64,000 bases of DNA from positions 186,001 to 250,000 of the forward strand of contig NZ_CP040518.1 of the NCBI RefSeq assembly GCF_005848555.1, read 5' to 3'. The notes below the pieces were generated by a model. It worked only from the letters and a program-made list of their open reading frames with translations. It made no database searches and had not been told where the DNA came from. A program made the translations under genes and the position numbers. Source of the DNA: Blautia sp. SC05B48. GTDB lineage: Bacteria; Bacillota; Clostridia; Lachnospirales; Lachnospiraceae. Shown here piece by piece: positions 2,094 through 32,776 of this stretch (positions are counted from its first letter, which is position 1; each line of letters opens with the position of its first letter).

Positions 2094-4198
2094 GATGCAT
2101 TCCCTCCTTTTTCCTCTTCTTTATTCCGGATATAATCCAGGATCAGGCTGGCCGCTCCGGCTACACCTGTTTTGGATACATTGATCACCATATCGTAATA
2201 ATGGGGATCGTCTCTGCGGATTCCGGTAAACTTCTCATAATATTCATTTCGGATCTGATCACGTTTCTTCAGTTCTCCAAGAGACTGGCCTTTATAATAT
2301 TCCTGGCCCTCTTTTTCCCGGTAAGCATCATCTGCATAAACGAAAAAGCTGTATGTATGCGGCTCTCCACGAAGCACATAGTTGGCACATCTTCCCAGGA
2401 ATACACCTGGTCTTCTCTCAGAAAGCTCACGGATGATCCGGCTCTGCACCTCAAACATCTGAACACCTGTATAATCTGCTGCCGCACCTGCCGATGAATG
2501 TCCATACGGGGAAAATGTAAGCTCAGAATCCTCATAATTGTAGGAATCCAGATACTGCCTTACACTTTCCAGATCTGCTTTTTCCATACCGAACTTTTCT
2601 GCCATAAGACAGATGATCTGACGATCATAAACCTTGCAGTCCAGTGCTTTTGCAACATCCTCGGCAATCTTTCTTCCACTGCTGCCATACAGTCTTCCAA
2701 TTGCCACATTGATCCGGTTTCCGGAAGCTTCCGGTAACGGCATGGACTGAATCTCGCCCGGCACAGAGACGCTTTCCTCTCCCGATTCTCGCTGGATCAG
2801 TTCACGCATCATTTTGTCATAAACTTTGTCCAGCTGGTAGCATGCTGCGATCACAAACATCACTACCCAGATTGCTATCGGAACATACAGATAAAATCCC
2901 TTGATCACGCGGATTGCCTCTGCAGACTGCTCTGCCGCTGTCGCCTTTGTTCCGTCAAAGTATGCCGCCGAAAGAATCCCGCCCATAATAGCAGAAGTCA
3001 GTCCGGAACCGGCCTTCTGGCCCATGCTCATAGATGAGAACATCAGGCCCTCCACACGCTTGCCTGTTTTCCACTGGCCATACTCAATTGCATCGCTTGG
3101 AAGAGAATACTGCACACCATAGAATGGGGCGATTCCGATACCTCTCATGATACAGGTTACAACACCAAGCGAAACACTGGTAATATTCATCAGGAACAGC
3201 AGCTGTCCTGCAACACCCAGGATGCAGCCGGCACAGATGAGATTTCTTTTTCCATAGCGGGGAAGCACCTTCGGCAGAAGGGCAATTCCTGCCACAGTTG
3301 CCAGTTTCTCAGCTGCGGAAAGAGGCATGACGAGGTCTACATTTCCGAGTACATACTGGCAGTAATAGGTAAGGTCCGTTCCGATAATGATCTGATATGC
3401 GGTATAAAAGATCATCAGCCCCAGAGCGATAAGGAAATACCGGTTGGTAACGGTTGCTTTAAATGCTTCCACAAAAGGAATATCTTCCTTTTCCTGTTTT
3501 GCTGCAGAAACACGCTCTGTACAGACCATATAAGTATTCACAAGTACACCGACAGAAATGATCGCATAGCCGGCAGTTACCAGGATCCAGGCCATCTGCT
3601 GATTGCCGGTAATATTCGCTACGATATTGATCAGCGGCAGTGTGAACGCAGTAATGATCATACTTGCTGTGATCGACAATACCATGCGGATGTTACAGAT
3701 CACATCACGTTCACGACGGTCACGGCTCATCAGAGATCCCAGTGCATGGAATGGCTGGCTGATAGCAGTGTATACAACCGTATTCATGATATTATAGGTA
3801 ACAAAAGCATAGATGATCTTTCCCATATTTCCCATTGGCGGCATAGTGAACAAAAGCACCGCTGCCAGCGCATAAGGAACCGCAAGTCTTAAGATCCAGA
3901 TCCTAGCTTTTCCATACTTGGAATGAGTCCGGTCGATAATAGTTCCCATCAGCACATCGGAAAATCCATCAAAAACACGGGACAAAAGCATGATCATTCC
4001 TACCGCACCTGCTGATATTCCAACAACGTTGGTATAAAAATAAATCAGCAGAGTTGTAGTCATGGTATACATCAAGGTCAGTGCCGGATCACCAAAACAG
4101 TATGCCAGCTTTTCCGACAACGGAACCTTGATGAATTCATTCAAGTCTTTCCCCTTCTGCTTGTAATTCAACAATTCAGGGATTCCCTTACCAGCCAT
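2090..4198 (-). CDS. GPH/MFS sugar transporter fused to a cytidylate-kinase-like domain
   Basis: 702 residues in two parts. Residues about 25-460 are a 12-helix transporter of the glycoside-pentoside-hexuronide (GPH) cation symporter type, with the loop DRTHSKYGKARIWILR between helices 2 and 4 and a SDAIEYGQWKTGKR segment typical of the family. After a charged linker (about 465-495), residues about 496-695 match the cytidylate-kinase-like family: NVAIGRLYGSSGRKIAEDVA in place of a P-loop, KVYDRQII, then GVFLGRCANYVL. GPH transporters normally end near residue 460. The neighbours are iolI upstream and iolH downstream, so the cargo is probably an inositol or inositol derivative. The start ATG follows ATAGGAGGTAGATACT. 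The frame is unbroken across the linker, so this is a real fusion in the given sequence. The kinase-like domain's substrate is unknown. Confidence 0.85.
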   Translation of the reverse strand: MAGKGIPELLNYKQKGKDLNEFIKVPLSEKLAYCFGDPALTLMYTMTTTLLIYFYTNVVGISAGAVGMIMLLSRVFDGFSDVLMGTIIDRTHSKYGKARIWILRLAVPYALAAVLLFTMPPMGNMGKIIYAFVTYNIMNTVVYTAISQPFHALGSLMSRDRRERDVICNIRMVLSITASMIITAFTLPLINIVANITGNQQMAWILVTAGYAIISVGVLVNTYMVCTERVSAAKQEKEDIPFVEAFKATVTNRYFLIALGLMIFYTAYQIIIGTDLTYYCQYVLGNVDLVMPLSAAEKLATVAGIALLPKVLPRYGKRNLICAGCILGVAGQLLFLMNITSVSLGVVTCIMRGIGIAPFYGVQYSLPSDAIEYGQWKTGKRVEGLMFSSMSMGQKAGSGLTSAIMGGILSAAYFDGTKATAAEQSAEAIRVIKGFYLYVPIAIWVVMFVIAACYQLDKVYDKMMRELIQRESGEESVSVPGEIQSMPLPEASGNRINVAIGRLYGSSGRKIAEDVAKALDCKVYDRQIICLMAEKFGMEKADLESVRQYLDSYNYEDSELTFSPYGHSSAGAAADYTGVQMFEVQSRIIRELSERRPGVFLGRCANYVLRGEPHTYSFFVYADDAYREKEGQEYYKGQSLGELKKRDQIRNEYYEKFTGIRRDDPHYYDMVINVSKTGVAGAASLILDYIRNKEEEKGGNAS

Positions 4199-27279: not shown

Positions 27280-28278
27280 CTATTTCCGGCAGATCCTCAT
27301 TCCATATCCATACATTACCGCCACAGCAGTCACAAGAACACAGACCATCACAGGTCTCATCCACAGATATAAAAGATTTTTCTGAATTCCTGCTGCCACA
27401 GCCACATCCTTCAGGATATCAGCCACACAGAGATGGAACAGATAAATAAAAAATGCATATTTCTGACCGATGGCTGCCGGAATCTCGGGCACTTTCCGAT
27501 TCTTTCCCATGATCGCAATGAGAAAAAGACCAACAGCCATAAATACTGAACCCAGAAACAATTCCAGTTTGCCAAAATACCTGTATTCCAGCAGACTTAC
27601 GATCCCGCCGCCAGCTACCATGCCATACAAAAAAAGCACTTTTTTTCCGGCAAACCAGGCTTCCAGCTTTTCCTGATGTCTGTGTATCAAATGTCCCAAC
27701 ATAAAAAACGGAAATCCGGTAAACAGATAGTTTCGAAACTGCATAACACGGAAATGCTTTTCCGGGAACAGGAAGGTCGAAAATTCCTCCATTCCGAAAT
27801 GGATCAGAAGAAGCACCGGTATCAGAACATATGCCTGTTTACAGAGCCGAAATCTTGCTGTCAGGGCAAAAAGAAGATAACAATAGAGCAGTGCCGGGAG
27901 AAACCACAGATGCCATTTCACCTGAGAACTGTTATTATATAGAAGAAACTGACGGATATGTTCCCCCGAAACCAGGGCTTCCAGCCATTCCTTCTGGCTT
28001 GCTCCGTCGATGTGGTTCTGGATCAGCTCCCACAGACAGCAGACCGGAAATGCCACAAGCATCAGCTTCAGAACATGCCGGATCTTTTTTCCAGTCCTTA
28101 CAAATTCCGTATCATCGCCACGGAAGCAGAAATATCCGGATACCATAAAAAAAACAGGTACTGCGAATCTGGCAAGTACATTGGCTATGATTCCGGCATT
28201 TCCCGGAAAATGGACATGAAGAAGCACAACTGCATAAGCACTGATTGCCTTTACCATATCCAGAGTACAGTTTCGCAT
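27280..28278 (-). CDS. Acyltransferase 3 family membrane protein
   Basis: 332 residues with about ten hydrophobic segments. The start LDMVKAISAYAVVLLHVHFPG, with its conserved histidine near residue 21, and RFAVPVFFMVSGYF are hallmarks of membrane O-acyltransferases that modify surface polysaccharides or lipids. KWHLWFLPALLYCYL fits the middle of the family. The last helices end in a short basic tail. The ATG follows AAAAAGGAGTAATTTTT. A perfect hairpin, CCCGGAA (28311-28317) with TTCCGGG (28324-28330), lies just upstream and may be an operator. The substrate is unknown; the window's exopolysaccharide is a possible target. Confidence 0.88.
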   Translation of the reverse strand: MRNCTLDMVKAISAYAVVLLHVHFPGNAGIIANVLARFAVPVFFMVSGYFCFRGDDTEFVRTGKKIRHVLKLMLVAFPVCCLWELIQNHIDGASQKEWLEALVSGEHIRQFLLYNNSSQVKWHLWFLPALLYCYLLFALTARFRLCKQAYVLIPVLLLIHFGMEEFSTFLFPEKHFRVMQFRNYLFTGFPFFMLGHLIHRHQEKLEAWFAGKKVLFLYGMVAGGGIVSLLEYRYFGKLELFLGSVFMAVGLFLIAIMGKNRKVPEIPAAIGQKYAFFIYLFHLCVADILKDVAVAAGIQKNLLYLWMRPVMVCVLVTAVAVMYGYGMRICRK

Positions 28279-28422: not shown

Positions 28423-28451
28423 TTGTACGGCTTCCGGATCTGAATTATAAT
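28423..28451 (+). promoter_or_regulatory. Promoter of the MerR-methyltransferase gene
   Basis: TTGTAC (28423-28428), a 17-bp spacer, and TATAAT (28446-28451). Upstream, CGGTTTACTCTT occurs twice at a 15-bp step (from 28398 and 28413), with a third partial CGG at 28428; these could be regulator contacts. Confidence 0.55.
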
Positions 28452-28510: not shown

Positions 28511-29692
28511 ATGAAAAAAGACGGCTACTATTCTTCCGGCGAATTTGCACGCATGGCACATGTAACTCTGCGTACTGTCCGCTATTATGATAAACAGGAT
28601 ATCCTGAAACCCTCTCTCGTCACCGAATCCGGCGCACGTTTTTATACAGACGAGGATTTTGCAAGGCTTCAGCAGATCCTCCTTCTGAAATACCTGGGCT
28701 TTTCCCTGGATGACATCCGTGAAATGACCATCGGTGATTCCGATTATCATTTCATGCTGAATTCTCTGAATATCCAGCTTCGTCTGGTCCGTGACCGGAT
28801 CGAACAAATGCAGCTGGTAGAAAAAGCGATCCAGGATACCGCACAGGTGATAAATGAACAGCACACCATTGACTGGAGCCAGATGCTGAACCTGATCCAC
28901 CTGACCGGCATGGAAAAAAGCCTCAAGAATCAGTATCAGAATGCTACCAACATTTCCTCCAGGATCAACCTCCACAGCCTGTACTCCCAGAACAAACAGG
29001 GATGGTTTCCCTGGATCTTTGAGCAATGCCGGATCTCACCCGGTCTTCGTATTCTGGAGCTGGGCTGCGGTGACGGAACGTTATGGACTGACAATCTTTC
29101 CCTTCTTCCGGAGGATATCTCCATCACACTTTCCGATATTTCCAGCGGTATGCTCCGCGATGCCAGACGAGCCATCGGTTCCTCGGATACCCGGTTTGCG
29201 TTCCGGGCCTTTGACTGCAGAAAAATCCCTTGCAAGGACGAAAGCTTTGATCTGGTGATCGCCAATCACGTGCTTTTTTACTGCGATGATATTCCCTCCG
29301 TCCTGAAAGAAGTTCGCCGTGTCCTCGCTCCCTGCGGGAGATTTCTCTGCAGCGCTTACGGAAAGGCACATATGCAGGAGGTCAGCCAGCTGGTGCAGGA
29401 TTTTGATGAACGGATCGTGCTTTCCGCAGACCGGCTTTATGAGCGGTTCGGACGTGAAAACGGCCAGAGTATCCTGACGCCTTTTTTCCCAAAGGCTCAG
29501 TGGCTTTCTTATGAAGACTGCCTTCTGGTCCAGGATGCGGAGCCGCTGATCTCCTACGTCCTCTCCTGCCACGGCAACCAGAATCAGTATATATTGGACC
29601 GTTACAAGGAATTCCGGGCCTACACCGCCAGAAAAACTGCCAAAGGATTCCGCATTACCAAGGATGCCGGCGTATTTCTTTGTGAAAAATAG
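28511..29692 (+). CDS. MerR-family regulator fused to a SAM-dependent methyltransferase
   Basis: 393 residues. Residues 6-74 are a MerR winged helix (YSSGEFARMAHVTLRTVRYYDKQD, then GARFYTDEDFARLQQI and GFSLDDIREM). A coiled-coil follows (about 85-115). Residues about 175-300 are a class I methyltransferase with motif I ILELGCGDGTLW at 181, then ALSDISSGM-like and DESFDLVIANHVLFYCDD. MerR proteins normally carry a small-molecule domain in this place, so the methyltransferase may act as a SAM or ligand sensor, or as an enzyme. The ATG at 28511 follows AGAAAGGATTC; an earlier in-frame codon at 28466 adds an unlikely stretch. The next gene is rmlA, behind a promoter of MerR type, so this protein probably controls it. 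Confidence 0.85.
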   Translation: MKKDGYYSSGEFARMAHVTLRTVRYYDKQDILKPSLVTESGARFYTDEDFARLQQILLLKYLGFSLDDIREMTIGDSDYHFMLNSLNIQLRLVRDRIEQMQLVEKAIQDTAQVINEQHTIDWSQMLNLIHLTGMEKSLKNQYQNATNISSRINLHSLYSQNKQGWFPWIFEQCRISPGLRILELGCGDGTLWTDNLSLLPEDISITLSDISSGMLRDARRAIGSSDTRFAFRAFDCRKIPCKDESFDLVIANHVLFYCDDIPSVLKEVRRVLAPCGRFLCSAYGKAHMQEVSQLVQDFDERIVLSADRLYERFGRENGQSILTPFFPKAQWLSYEDCLLVQDAEPLISYVLSCHGNQNQYILDRYKEFRAYTARKTAKGFRITKDAGVFLCEK

Positions 29693-29720
29693 CCAAAAAT
29701 AAAAAATATGAAAAAAGCTC

Positions 29721-29751
29721 TTGAAGGTGACCTTGCGTCACCTTTTATAAT
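29721..29751 (+). promoter_or_regulatory. rmlABD promoter of MerR type: 19-bp spacer with a perfect palindrome
   Basis: TTGAAG (29721-29726) and TATAAT (29746-29751) are 19 bp apart, too long for normal sigma-A use but the known hallmark of MerR-activated promoters. The spacer is filled by AAGGTGAC (29724-29731) and GTCACCTT (29737-29744), a perfect 8-bp inverted repeat around CTTGC. The MerR-methyltransferase gene ends 28 bp upstream. Confidence 0.75.
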
Positions 29752-29821
29752 ACAGTTACAGTAACAAAGTTATGTGCAGGCACGACTTATGCTGCACATC
29801 ATCACGCAAAGGAGAAAACAT

Positions 29822-30718
29822 ATGAAAGGAATTATTTTAGCCGGAGGCTCCGGAACACGTCTTTACCCGCTTACCATGGTGACCTCCAAACAGCTTCTGC
29901 CGATCTTTGACAAACCGATGATCTACTATCCTATGTCTGTTCTTATGAACGCAGGCATCCGTGATATCCTGATCATCTCCACCCCGCAGGATACCCCGAG
30001 ATTTGAGGAGCTTCTCGGTGACGGCCATCAGTTCGGTGTCAACCTTACCTATGCTGTACAGCCAAGCCCGGACGGACTTGCTCAGGCATTTATCATCGGC
30101 GAGGAATTCATCGGCAACGATACCGTATGTATGGTCCTTGGTGACAACATTTTCGCAGGACATGGCCTCAAAAAGCGCCTGAAAGCTGCTGTAGACAATG
30201 CAGAAACAGGCAAAGGTGCCACTGTTTTCGGATACTATGTAGATGATCCGGAGCGTTTCGGCATCGTGGAATTCGACCAGAACGGAAAAGCTGTTTCCAT
30301 TGAAGAGAAACCGGAAAAGCCAAAAAGCAACTACTGTGTAACCGGTCTCTACTTCTACGACAACAAGGTTGTAGAGTACGCAAAAAATCTGAAGCCAAGC
30401 GCAAGAGGCGAGCTTGAGATCACAGACCTGAACCGTATCTACCTTGAGAAGGGACAGCTGAACGTTGAGCTTCTGGGCCAGGGCTTCACATGGCTGGATA
30501 CCGGTACACACGAAAGCCTTGTAGAGGCAACCAACTTCGTAAAAACCATGGAGCAGCATCAGCACCGCAAGATCGCATGCCTTGAGGAGATTGCTTACTT
30601 AAACGGCTGGATCACAAAGGAGGACGTGCTCAAGGTTTACGAAATCCTTAAGAAAAACCAGTACGGTCAGTATCTCAAGGATGTTCTGGACGGAAAATAT
30701 CTGGACGCTCTTCACTGA
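29822..30718 (+). CDS. rmlA: Glucose-1-phosphate thymidylyltransferase
   Basis: 298 residues. Makes dTDP-glucose, the first step to dTDP-L-rhamnose. The start [18 protein letters not shown], the block [20 protein letters not shown], and [34 protein letters not shown] and [13 protein letters not shown] are textbook RmlA. The ATG follows GCAAAGGAGAAAACAT; the frame opens earlier at 29774 without a site. First gene of rmlA-rmlB-rmlD. Confidence 0.95.
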
Positions 30719-30812: not shown

Positions 30813-31847
30813 ATGACAATCATTGTTACCGGCGGTGCCGGATTTATCGGAAGCAACTTTATTTTTCATATGATGGAGGCTCATCCGGACTATCGTATCG
30901 TATGCCTGGACTGCCTGACTTACGCAGGAAACCTTTCCACTCTTGCACCGGTTATGGACAAACCGAACTTCCGCTTTGTAAAGGAGAGCATCACAGACCG
31001 TGACGCTGTTTACAAGCTTTTTGAGGAAGAGCATCCGGACATCGTGGTAAACTTCGCAGCTGAGAGCCACGTAGACCGTTCCATCGAAAACCCGGAGGTA
31101 TTCCTTGACACCAACATCAAGGGTACTGCTGTTCTCATGGATGCCTGCCGTAAATACGGAATCCAGCGTTATCATCAGGTTTCCACAGATGAGGTTTACG
31201 GAGATCTTCCTCTTGACAGACCGGACCTCTTCTTCACAGAGGAAACTCCGATCCATACAAGCAGCCCGTACAGCTCCTCCAAAGCAGGTGCTGACCTTCT
31301 TGTTCTCGCATACCACAGAACCTACGGCCTGCCTGTGACCATCAGCCGCTGCTCCAACAACTACGGCCCGTATCACTTCCCGGAAAAGCTGATCCCGCTG
31401 ATGATCGCCAACGCTCTGAACGACAAACCACTCCCGGTTTACGGAAAGGGTGAAAATGTCCGCGACTGGCTCTATGTTGAGGATCACTGCCGTGCCATCG
31501 ACCTGATCATCCACAAAGGACGTGTAGGCGAGGTTTACAATGTAGGCGGACATAACGAGATGAAAAACATCGATATCGTAAAACTGATCTGCAAGGAGCT
31601 TGGCAAACCGGAAAGCCTGATCACACATGTAGCAGACCGTAAAGGCCATGACATGCGCTACGCTATCGACCCGACCAAGATCCACAACGAGCTTGGATGG
31701 CTTCCTGAAACAAAATTCGCAGACGGAATCAAAAAGACCATCAAATGGTACCTTGACAACAAGGAATGGTGGGAAACCATCATCTCCGGTGAGTATCAGA
31801 ACTACTACGAAAAAATGTATGGAAACCGCGAGGAGGTTAAAGCATGA
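30813..31847 (+). CDS. rmlB: dTDP-glucose 4,6-dehydratase
   Basis: 344 residues. Converts dTDP-glucose to the 4-keto-6-deoxy sugar using bound NAD. It has an N-terminal VTGGAGFIGSNF Rossmann loop, FAAESHVDRSIENP, STDEVYGDLP, and the active-site SPYSSSKAGADLLVLAYHRTYGLP with the YxxxK pair, then RCSNNYGPYHFPEKLIP. The ATG follows TAAAGGAGATTTTTT. The 94-bp gap after rmlA shows no open frame. The ORF overlaps rmlD by 4 bp. Confidence 0.95.
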   Translation: MTIIVTGGAGFIGSNFIFHMMEAHPDYRIVCLDCLTYAGNLSTLAPVMDKPNFRFVKESITDRDAVYKLFEEEHPDIVVNFAAESHVDRSIENPEVFLDTNIKGTAVLMDACRKYGIQRYHQVSTDEVYGDLPLDRPDLFFTEETPIHTSSPYSSSKAGADLLVLAYHRTYGLPVTISRCSNNYGPYHFPEKLIPLMIANALNDKPLPVYGKGENVRDWLYVEDHCRAIDLIIHKGRVGEVYNVGGHNEMKNIDIVKLICKELGKPESLITHVADRKGHDMRYAIDPTKIHNELGWLPETKFADGIKKTIKWYLDNKEWWETIISGEYQNYYEKMYGNREEVKA

Positions 31848-32776
31848 GATTTTTCGTAACAGGTGTTGGCGGCCAGCTTGGCCATGACGTAATGAATGAA
31901 CTGTCCGGCCGTGGACATGAAGGCGTAGGAAGTGACATTGCTCCTTCCTACAGCGGCATCGCTGATGGTACTCCTGTTACCACCATGCCTTATGTGCAGC
32001 TTGATATCACAGATAAAGAAGCGGTAGCAAAAACCATCCGTGAGGTAAAGCCTGATGCAGTGGTACACTGTGCCGCATGGACAGCCGTAGACGCTGCAGA
32101 GGACGAGGAAAACCGTGAAAAGGTACGTCTTGTCAATGTTGTAGGAACACAGAACATTGCGGACATCTGCAAGGAGCTTGGCATCAAGATGATGTATATT
32201 TCCACAGACTACGTTTTTGACGGCCAGGGAACCACACCATGGGATCCGGACTGCAAGGACTACGCTCCACAGAACGTATACGGTCAGACCAAGCTTGACG
32301 GTGAACTGGCAGTATCCGGCACTGTAGATAAATTCTTTATCGTACGTATTGCATGGGTATTCGGCAAAAACGGCAAGAACTTTATCCGTACTATGGTAAA
32401 TCTGGGAAAAACCCATGACAAGCTTACCGTAGTCAGTGACCAGATTGGAACTCCGACCTACACCTACGACCTTGCACGTCTTCTGGTAGACATGGTCGAG
32501 ACAGAGAAATACGGCTACTATCACGCAACCAACGAAGGCGGCTTCATCAGCTGGTATGATTTCACTAAAGAGATCTTCCGCCAGGCTGCTGCCCTCGGCC
32601 ACAAGGAATACGAAAAAGTAGAGGTATCTCCTGTCACAACTGCAGAGTACGGCGTTTCCAAGGCTGTACGTCCATTCAACAGCCGCCTGGATAAATCCAA
32701 GCTTGTAAAAAACGGCTTCCAGCCACTTCCAACATGGCAGGATGCCCTGGAAAGATATCTGAAAGAGATCCTGTAA
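31844..32776 (+). CDS. rmlD: dTDP-4-dehydrorhamnose reductase
   Basis: 310 residues. Final, NAD(P)H-dependent step to dTDP-L-rhamnose. FFVTGVGGQLGHDV, CAAWTAVDAAEDEE, YISTDYVFDGQGTTPW, and the YxxxK pair in NVYGQTKLDGE with RIAWVFGKNGKNFI identify it. It starts inside the rmlB stop (ATGA). The 3,5-epimerase RmlC that should act between RmlB and RmlD is not encoded in this operon or anywhere in the window. Confidence 0.93.
   Translation: MRFFVTGVGGQLGHDVMNELSGRGHEGVGSDIAPSYSGIADGTPVTTMPYVQLDITDKEAVAKTIREVKPDAVVHCAAWTAVDAAEDEENREKVRLVNVVGTQNIADICKELGIKMMYISTDYVFDGQGTTPWDPDCKDYAPQNVYGQTKLDGELAVSGTVDKFFIVRIAWVFGKNGKNFIRTMVNLGKTHDKLTVVSDQIGTPTYTYDLARLLVDMVETEKYGYYHATNEGGFISWYDFTKEIFRQAAALGHKEYEKVEVSPVTTAEYGVSKAVRPFNSRLDKSKLVKNGFQPLPTWQDALERYLKEIL

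Follow-up and report, generated by a model that had tools for sequence, protein, structure and literature searches.

The 393-aa product of a gene in a 64,000-nucleotide stretch of the Blautia sp. SC05B48 genome (contig NZ_CP040518.1, positions 186,001 to 250,000; hereafter the window, in which coordinates are given) quite probably binds a 21-bp dyad and activates the promoter of the rmlABD genes that follow it. This protein is a fusion of a MerR DNA-binding domain and a class I methyltransferase domain, and the fusion itself, the geometry of the operator and the association that ties regulator and operator to the rml genes in many genera are strongly supported; from the sequence data, we infer DNA binding by the fusion protein. 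In the proposed mechanism, a dimer of the MerR-methyltransferase would bind the rmlABD promoter at the dyad that separates its overspaced -35 and -10 boxes and, in the signalling state, would distort the DNA such that RNA polymerase could use this promoter, leading to a larger supply of dTDP-rhamnose precursor. The C-terminal methyltransferase fold would replace the usual sensor domain of MerR proteins and would bind SAM or SAH plus a small molecule, the likeliest candidates being metabolites from dTDP-sugar or cell-wall glycan pathways. Activation rather than plain repression is suggested by the geometry of the promoter, which is that of MerR promoters.

The gene coding for the fusion protein (28511..29692, plus strand) has a start backed by an alignment of 43 homologues. 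Its product harbors the N-terminal winged helix-turn-helix of the MerR family (residues 7-72, 28529..28726, plus strand; Pfam MerR_1, 64.4 bits for a cut-off of 21.6), and sequence matches of this part to solved structures include 3hh0, Mta, BmrR, TipA and EcmrR. The class I methyltransferase domain and the C-terminal part cover residues ~133-393 (28907..29689, plus strand), as indicated by Pfam (Methyltransf_11, residues 182-280, 67.3 bits for a cut-off of 21.2) and by the fold and model matches, which span residues 133-393. This part displays the Rossmann-like fold and the glycine-rich SAM motif of class I SAM-dependent methyltransferases (ELGCGDG, plus D209). A linker helix, at the place of the long dimerisation helix of MerR regulators, is predicted with low confidence at residues 79-117, in a model with a pTM of 0.62 and a mean pLDDT of ~47-59 over residues 71-120. 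A possible promoter of the regulator gene itself can be read from the sequence at 28423..28451 on the plus strand (TTGTAC, 17-bp spacer, TATAAT, no dyad), a weak candidate because it is absent from the consensus promoter scan. A divergent gene coding for a membrane acyltransferase (27280-28278, minus strand) adjoins the regulator, and this neighbourhood is retained with high identity in only the nearest species seen (L005, L006 and L220).

The rml promoter is composed of a -35 box TTGAAG (29721..29726), a 19-bp spacer (29727..29745) and a -10 box TATAAT (29746..29751), all on the plus strand, with a predicted start near 29758. The predicted MerR-type operator, AAGGTGAC-CTTGC-GTCACCTT (29724..29744, plus strand), is an 8-5-8 inverted repeat of 21 bp with exact arms, the left one sharing three bases with the 3' end of the -35 box. 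This dyad is centred 7 bp past the -35 box, in a spacer of the length (19-20 bp) that holds the dyad in MerR-family promoters, and the same distance is given for 21-bp MerR-family sites by the rule of Prot-DNA-Korr, in the available text of the source (PMC5045206). An earlier note on this DNA had described a MerR winged helix fused to a SAM-type methyltransferase, now borne out by both Pfam matches, and a promoter whose 19-bp spacer would be filled by an 8-bp palindrome; the spacer was correctly read, but the palindrome is in fact the 21-bp 8-5-8 repeat. The search of other promoters suggested in the same note found the element to be unique in its own genome. The inverted repeat has its sole match within the window at ≤3 mismatches (shuffles average 0.17), the extended element occurs once at ≤3 mismatches in the whole 3.73-Mb genome (reversed control, 0), and a scan of both strands of the window for TTG, a spacer of 19/20 bp, TA...T and a dyad of at least 7 pairs at the expected centre returned this site alone. 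A chance palindrome is ruled out by the shuffles, by the single occurrence in the genome and by the family-wide whole-genome pattern described below. A wider regulon in this genome was also rejected, the matches at 2 mismatches lying at 5 other places as compared with 7 for the reversed control.

Conservation of this arrangement was analysed from one scan of genome contigs, which gave 193 relatives of the regulator, the best 80 of which were kept. A 32-bp element comprising the dyad and both promoter boxes is present in 79 of these best 80 loci, before an rml gene in 77 cases and near a contig end in two (L054 and L084, the former still showing the first 25 codons of rmlA). The rml gene starts ≤700 bp downstream of the regulator in 64 of the 80. 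In six loci, regulator and rml genes are apart or inverted (L029, L037, L050, L061, L071 and L076; in L037 the rml genes are inverted within the locus) and the element stays with rml, and in seven others the stretch examined holds no rml gene and the site is found elsewhere in the genome, before rmlA. No site was found for L080, a 3-mismatch match in that genome being unlike the element. The regulator-operator pair is found in gut Lachnospiraceae that include Blautia, Dorea, Coprococcus and Anaerobutyricum. Over the aligned sites, the element holds 1.55 bits per base as compared with 0.53 and 0.19 for its flanks, in windows chosen by the matrix presented below, and the flanks are unconserved except for an A5 tract a few bases 5' of the -35 box (29712..29716, plus strand; 1.4-1.8 bits in 66 thinned sites), which may be an UP element.

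The same loci bear on the nature of the repeat, which lies directly 3' of the regulator gene, could form an 8-bp stem and might thus be a transcription terminator of that gene or an RNA hairpin. This appears extremely unlikely, as the repeat is followed by TATAAT and not by a T run, is absent from the terminator scan and has no match in Rfam. Moreover, it stays with the rml promoter when another gene is upstream, and all 64 adjacent loci (64/64) give an ungapped match, before rml, to the dyad together with the TTG and TATAAT boxes.

The specificity of the link between regulator and operator was evaluated in a set of 250 genomes of the family, 36 of which harbor the rml-type regulator (35 as one long match and G114 in two pieces). 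At ≤1 mismatch, the whole-genome pattern matches 23 of the 250 genomes, at one place each, and its reversed control none. All 23 belong to the 36 genomes with the regulator, and none of the 214 regulator-free genomes matches; the pattern is not fully sensitive, since it misses 13 of the 36. A matrix trained without gaps on 52 sites from loci L005-L114 identifies a site in 35 of the 36 genomes, with a weakest score of 14.5. The exception is G174 (76% complete), which has the regulator and in which neither a site nor a match to rmlA was found. Because of this design, neither the matrix scores on L005-L114 nor the constant spacing of the matches counts as an independent result, and independent evidence comes from the whole-genome patterns and from the rmlA loci of regulator-free genomes.

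In the family, rmlA is present in 209 of the 250 genomes, including 34 of those with the regulator, leaving ~175 with rmlA and no regulator. One rmlA locus from each of 88 such genomes (28, then 60 more) was searched with the matrix, and 87 have no site, scoring ≤5.6 as compared with 14.5-55.2 for accepted sites. A second rmlA of a genome that does have the regulator (G194, locus L144) is also without a site. The only regulator-free locus with a site is that of G162, a 97% complete draft, where a site scoring 27.6 (reverse strand of L284, 1053-1084; loci L284 and L335) directly precedes rmlA-rmlB-rmlD and an rmlC-like gene. No regulator was found within 9.3 kb of it, nor among the 7 of 11 candidates that were scored. 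G162 remains an exception in which the regulator may have been lost, left unassembled or replaced, and it is alone among the results in favouring either a different binder or a regulator that was lost or not assembled.

A similar picture emerges within the genus, where the regulator is present in 24 of 64 genomes and all 24 have the site. Among the 40 regulator-free genomes of the genus, one has a site (G478, an 83% complete draft), at the start of a contig. At 2 mismatches, 29 genomes of the genus match and the reversed control gave 2 matches; the matches in G452, G457, G477 and G495 were excluded as sites (matrix scores of -1.7 to 6.9, no adjoining rml gene). Most matches of a further scan at 3 mismatches look like chance, the control matching as well; those at 1 mismatch in that scan lie in G309 (before rmlB), G349 and G435.

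The proposal in the earlier note that the regulator acts on the rmlABD promoter gains strong support from this conservation, gene and palindrome being carried together in 79 of the best 80 loci and in 35 of the 36 regulator genomes. The same note had named rmlA genes with the palindrome and without the regulator as evidence to the contrary, a combination that does not occur at 87 of the 88 loci and is found at one, that of G162. Alternatively, the dyad could be the target of a different cellular MerR protein, the fusion gene being a mere neighbour, since 6 matches to the query point to further MerR-like proteins in this genome and since G162 has a site and no rml-type regulator was found there. 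We consider this improbable, because site and fusion protein co-occur even when their genes are far apart, and because the pattern is absent from all 214 regulator-free family genomes and the matrix finds a site at only 1 of the 88 regulator-free rmlA loci.

Binding by the fusion protein itself is further addressed by the recognition helix, whose residues 20-21 are KK whenever the arms are of the TGCCC type (eight of eight distinct protein-site pairs) and in none of the 89 other pairs, in a comparison limited to loci that have both a site and a complete helix. In a tree built from 116 proteins (110 have a site), the KK residues and the TGCCC arms each result from one change, in the same clade, suggesting a single joint event rather than repeated co-evolution and giving weak support. 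The association fits a direct recognition of the operator by the regulator.

The genes predicted to be under this control code for the glucose-1-phosphate thymidylyltransferase RmlA (29822..30718; TIGR01207, 489 bits, cut-off 361), the dTDP-glucose 4,6-dehydratase RmlB (30813..31847; TIGR01181, 491 bits, cut-off 365) and the dTDP-4-dehydrorhamnose reductase RmlD (31844..32776; TIGR01214, 301 bits, cut-off 224), all on the plus strand. Their pathway provides dTDP-rhamnose, which feeds surface polysaccharides. Since the fourth pathway gene, rmlC, is located apart from this cluster in the Blautia sp. SC05B48 genome and has no site there, the predicted regulon covers only rmlABD in this strain. 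All 23 sites of the whole-genome pattern precede rml genes, mostly rmlA, the other targets being an rmlB-like gene (L119), rmlD (L124) and an rmlC-like gene (L126, labelled from a reading of the translation). In this last case (G046), the site directly precedes the rmlC-like epimerase gene, distant from the rml operon, and rmlC may thus join the predicted regulon in some species. In a more distant branch (~45-54% identity), the regulator is often within the rml operon, and in L190, L192, L194 and L201 the site then stands before both regulator and rml. L078 (4279, minus strand) has a second rmlA, accompanied by a site of its own and by the end of another regulator gene, on the same short contig as the first copy and facing it, possibly a duplication or an assembly artefact.

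In the methyltransferase part, E183, G185, G187, G189 and D209, as well as the LSCHGNQ motif (residues 351-357, 29561..29581, plus strand), are invariant in the 43 aligned proteins. This motif is replaced in four MerR-methyltransferases without rml genes in the flanks examined, by YPGN (L204), LPGS (L205) and SATGNM (L225 and L226). Being specific to the rml-type proteins and absent from the four other fusions examined, LSCHGNQ may form part of a pocket for an rml-specific signal, and the domain would act as a sensor, as we infer from these comparisons. A dTDP-sugar or cell-wall glycan intermediate, accompanied by bound SAM or SAH, is our guess for the ligand. Our tentative reading, for which there is a reasonable if limited chance, is that the methyltransferase fold senses such an intermediate with a co-ligand built in (SAM or SAH) and with LSCHGNQ in the ligand pocket, such that rhamnose supply in Lachnospiraceae would be gated on glycan demand and methylation state. 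Fold matches do not designate a substrate, as they concern many different methyltransferases (GtmA, OxaG, TmtA, RoqN and others), and no acceptor could be named from the structure.

The domain might instead be a general SAM/SAH gauge that couples the supply of rhamnose precursor to the methylation status and has neither a sugar nor a glycan as ligand. The invariance of the SAM-binding residues in the 43 homologues would agree with such a role, and a precedent exists in SahR, an ArsR-family regulator that responds to SAH according to the available text of its description (PMC4239095). This possibility is rather doubtful, given that 23 of 23 pattern sites precede rml genes and 0 a SAM-cycle gene, and that the most rml-type-specific part of the protein, LSCHGNQ, lies near the C-terminus, outside the SAM motif. 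The intact SAM motif may also indicate that the protein is a working methyltransferase as well, acting as a trigger enzyme with DNA binding controlled by its substrate, and the family also has stand-alone relatives of the domain (~30-40% identity). The five that were aligned nevertheless carry other residues at likely pocket positions (ANMMLYH, with ANSMLYH in L209, as compared with ANHVLFY) and have no SCHGN, which makes this activity unlikely. The stand-alone homologues (L195 and L206-L209) show no rml genes in the 4-7 kb examined, and therefore do not give the ligand of the sensor that we favour.

As far as literature searches show, a dedicated regulator of dTDP-rhamnose synthesis in gut Lachnospiraceae, as predicted here, is undescribed, and no account of a MerR-methyltransferase controlling rml was found in the accessible part of the open-licence literature. 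MerR activators with large ligand domains are already known, and the present fusion would extend the sensor-type domains of this group by a methyltransferase fold. With one site per genome in most genomes scanned, it offers a clean system for finding what such a domain senses, and a single protein with a single promoter would suffice to address the question of its ligand.

Among the known systems, BmrR, TipA and EcmrR likewise combine an N-terminal MerR winged helix, a large C-terminal domain and a dyad in an overspaced promoter. These regulators serve drug response, whereas the fusion protein has a class I methyltransferase fold as C-terminal domain and nucleotide-sugar synthesis as predicted target. 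The sensor domain of SahR is methyltransferase-like, but SahR has an ArsR-type DNA-binding domain and SAM-cycle targets, in contrast to the MerR domain and predicted rml targets of the fusion protein, which is thus not of the SahR type. The fusions of L204, L205, L225 and L226 show the same domain order and have 19-bp MerR-type sites upstream of their genes; they differ by the lack of rml genes in the flanks examined, by the replacement of LSCHGNQ and, in L204 and L205, by other operator arms. The 19-bp-spacer sites of these two are of the CCTTCCGG and CCTTGCCC types, so that the fusion family seems to include other regulons. L226 (G435) lies outside the family and codes for a 32%-identical MerR-methyltransferase with two MerR-type sites on the minus strand (~3595-3625 and 2703-2733), one before its own gene and one before an upstream gene that reads, from its translation, as a sugar-isomerase-like TIM-barrel protein. 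Finally, a comparison can be made with CueR/HmrR-type operators, as the CueR site is an 8-5-8 repeat, ACCTTCCC-(5)-TGGAAGGT, in a 19-bp spacer in the available text of the source (PMC1526738). The rml operator shares this spacer and this layout, and is distinguished by its half-site AAGGTGAC, by another regulator and by another target.
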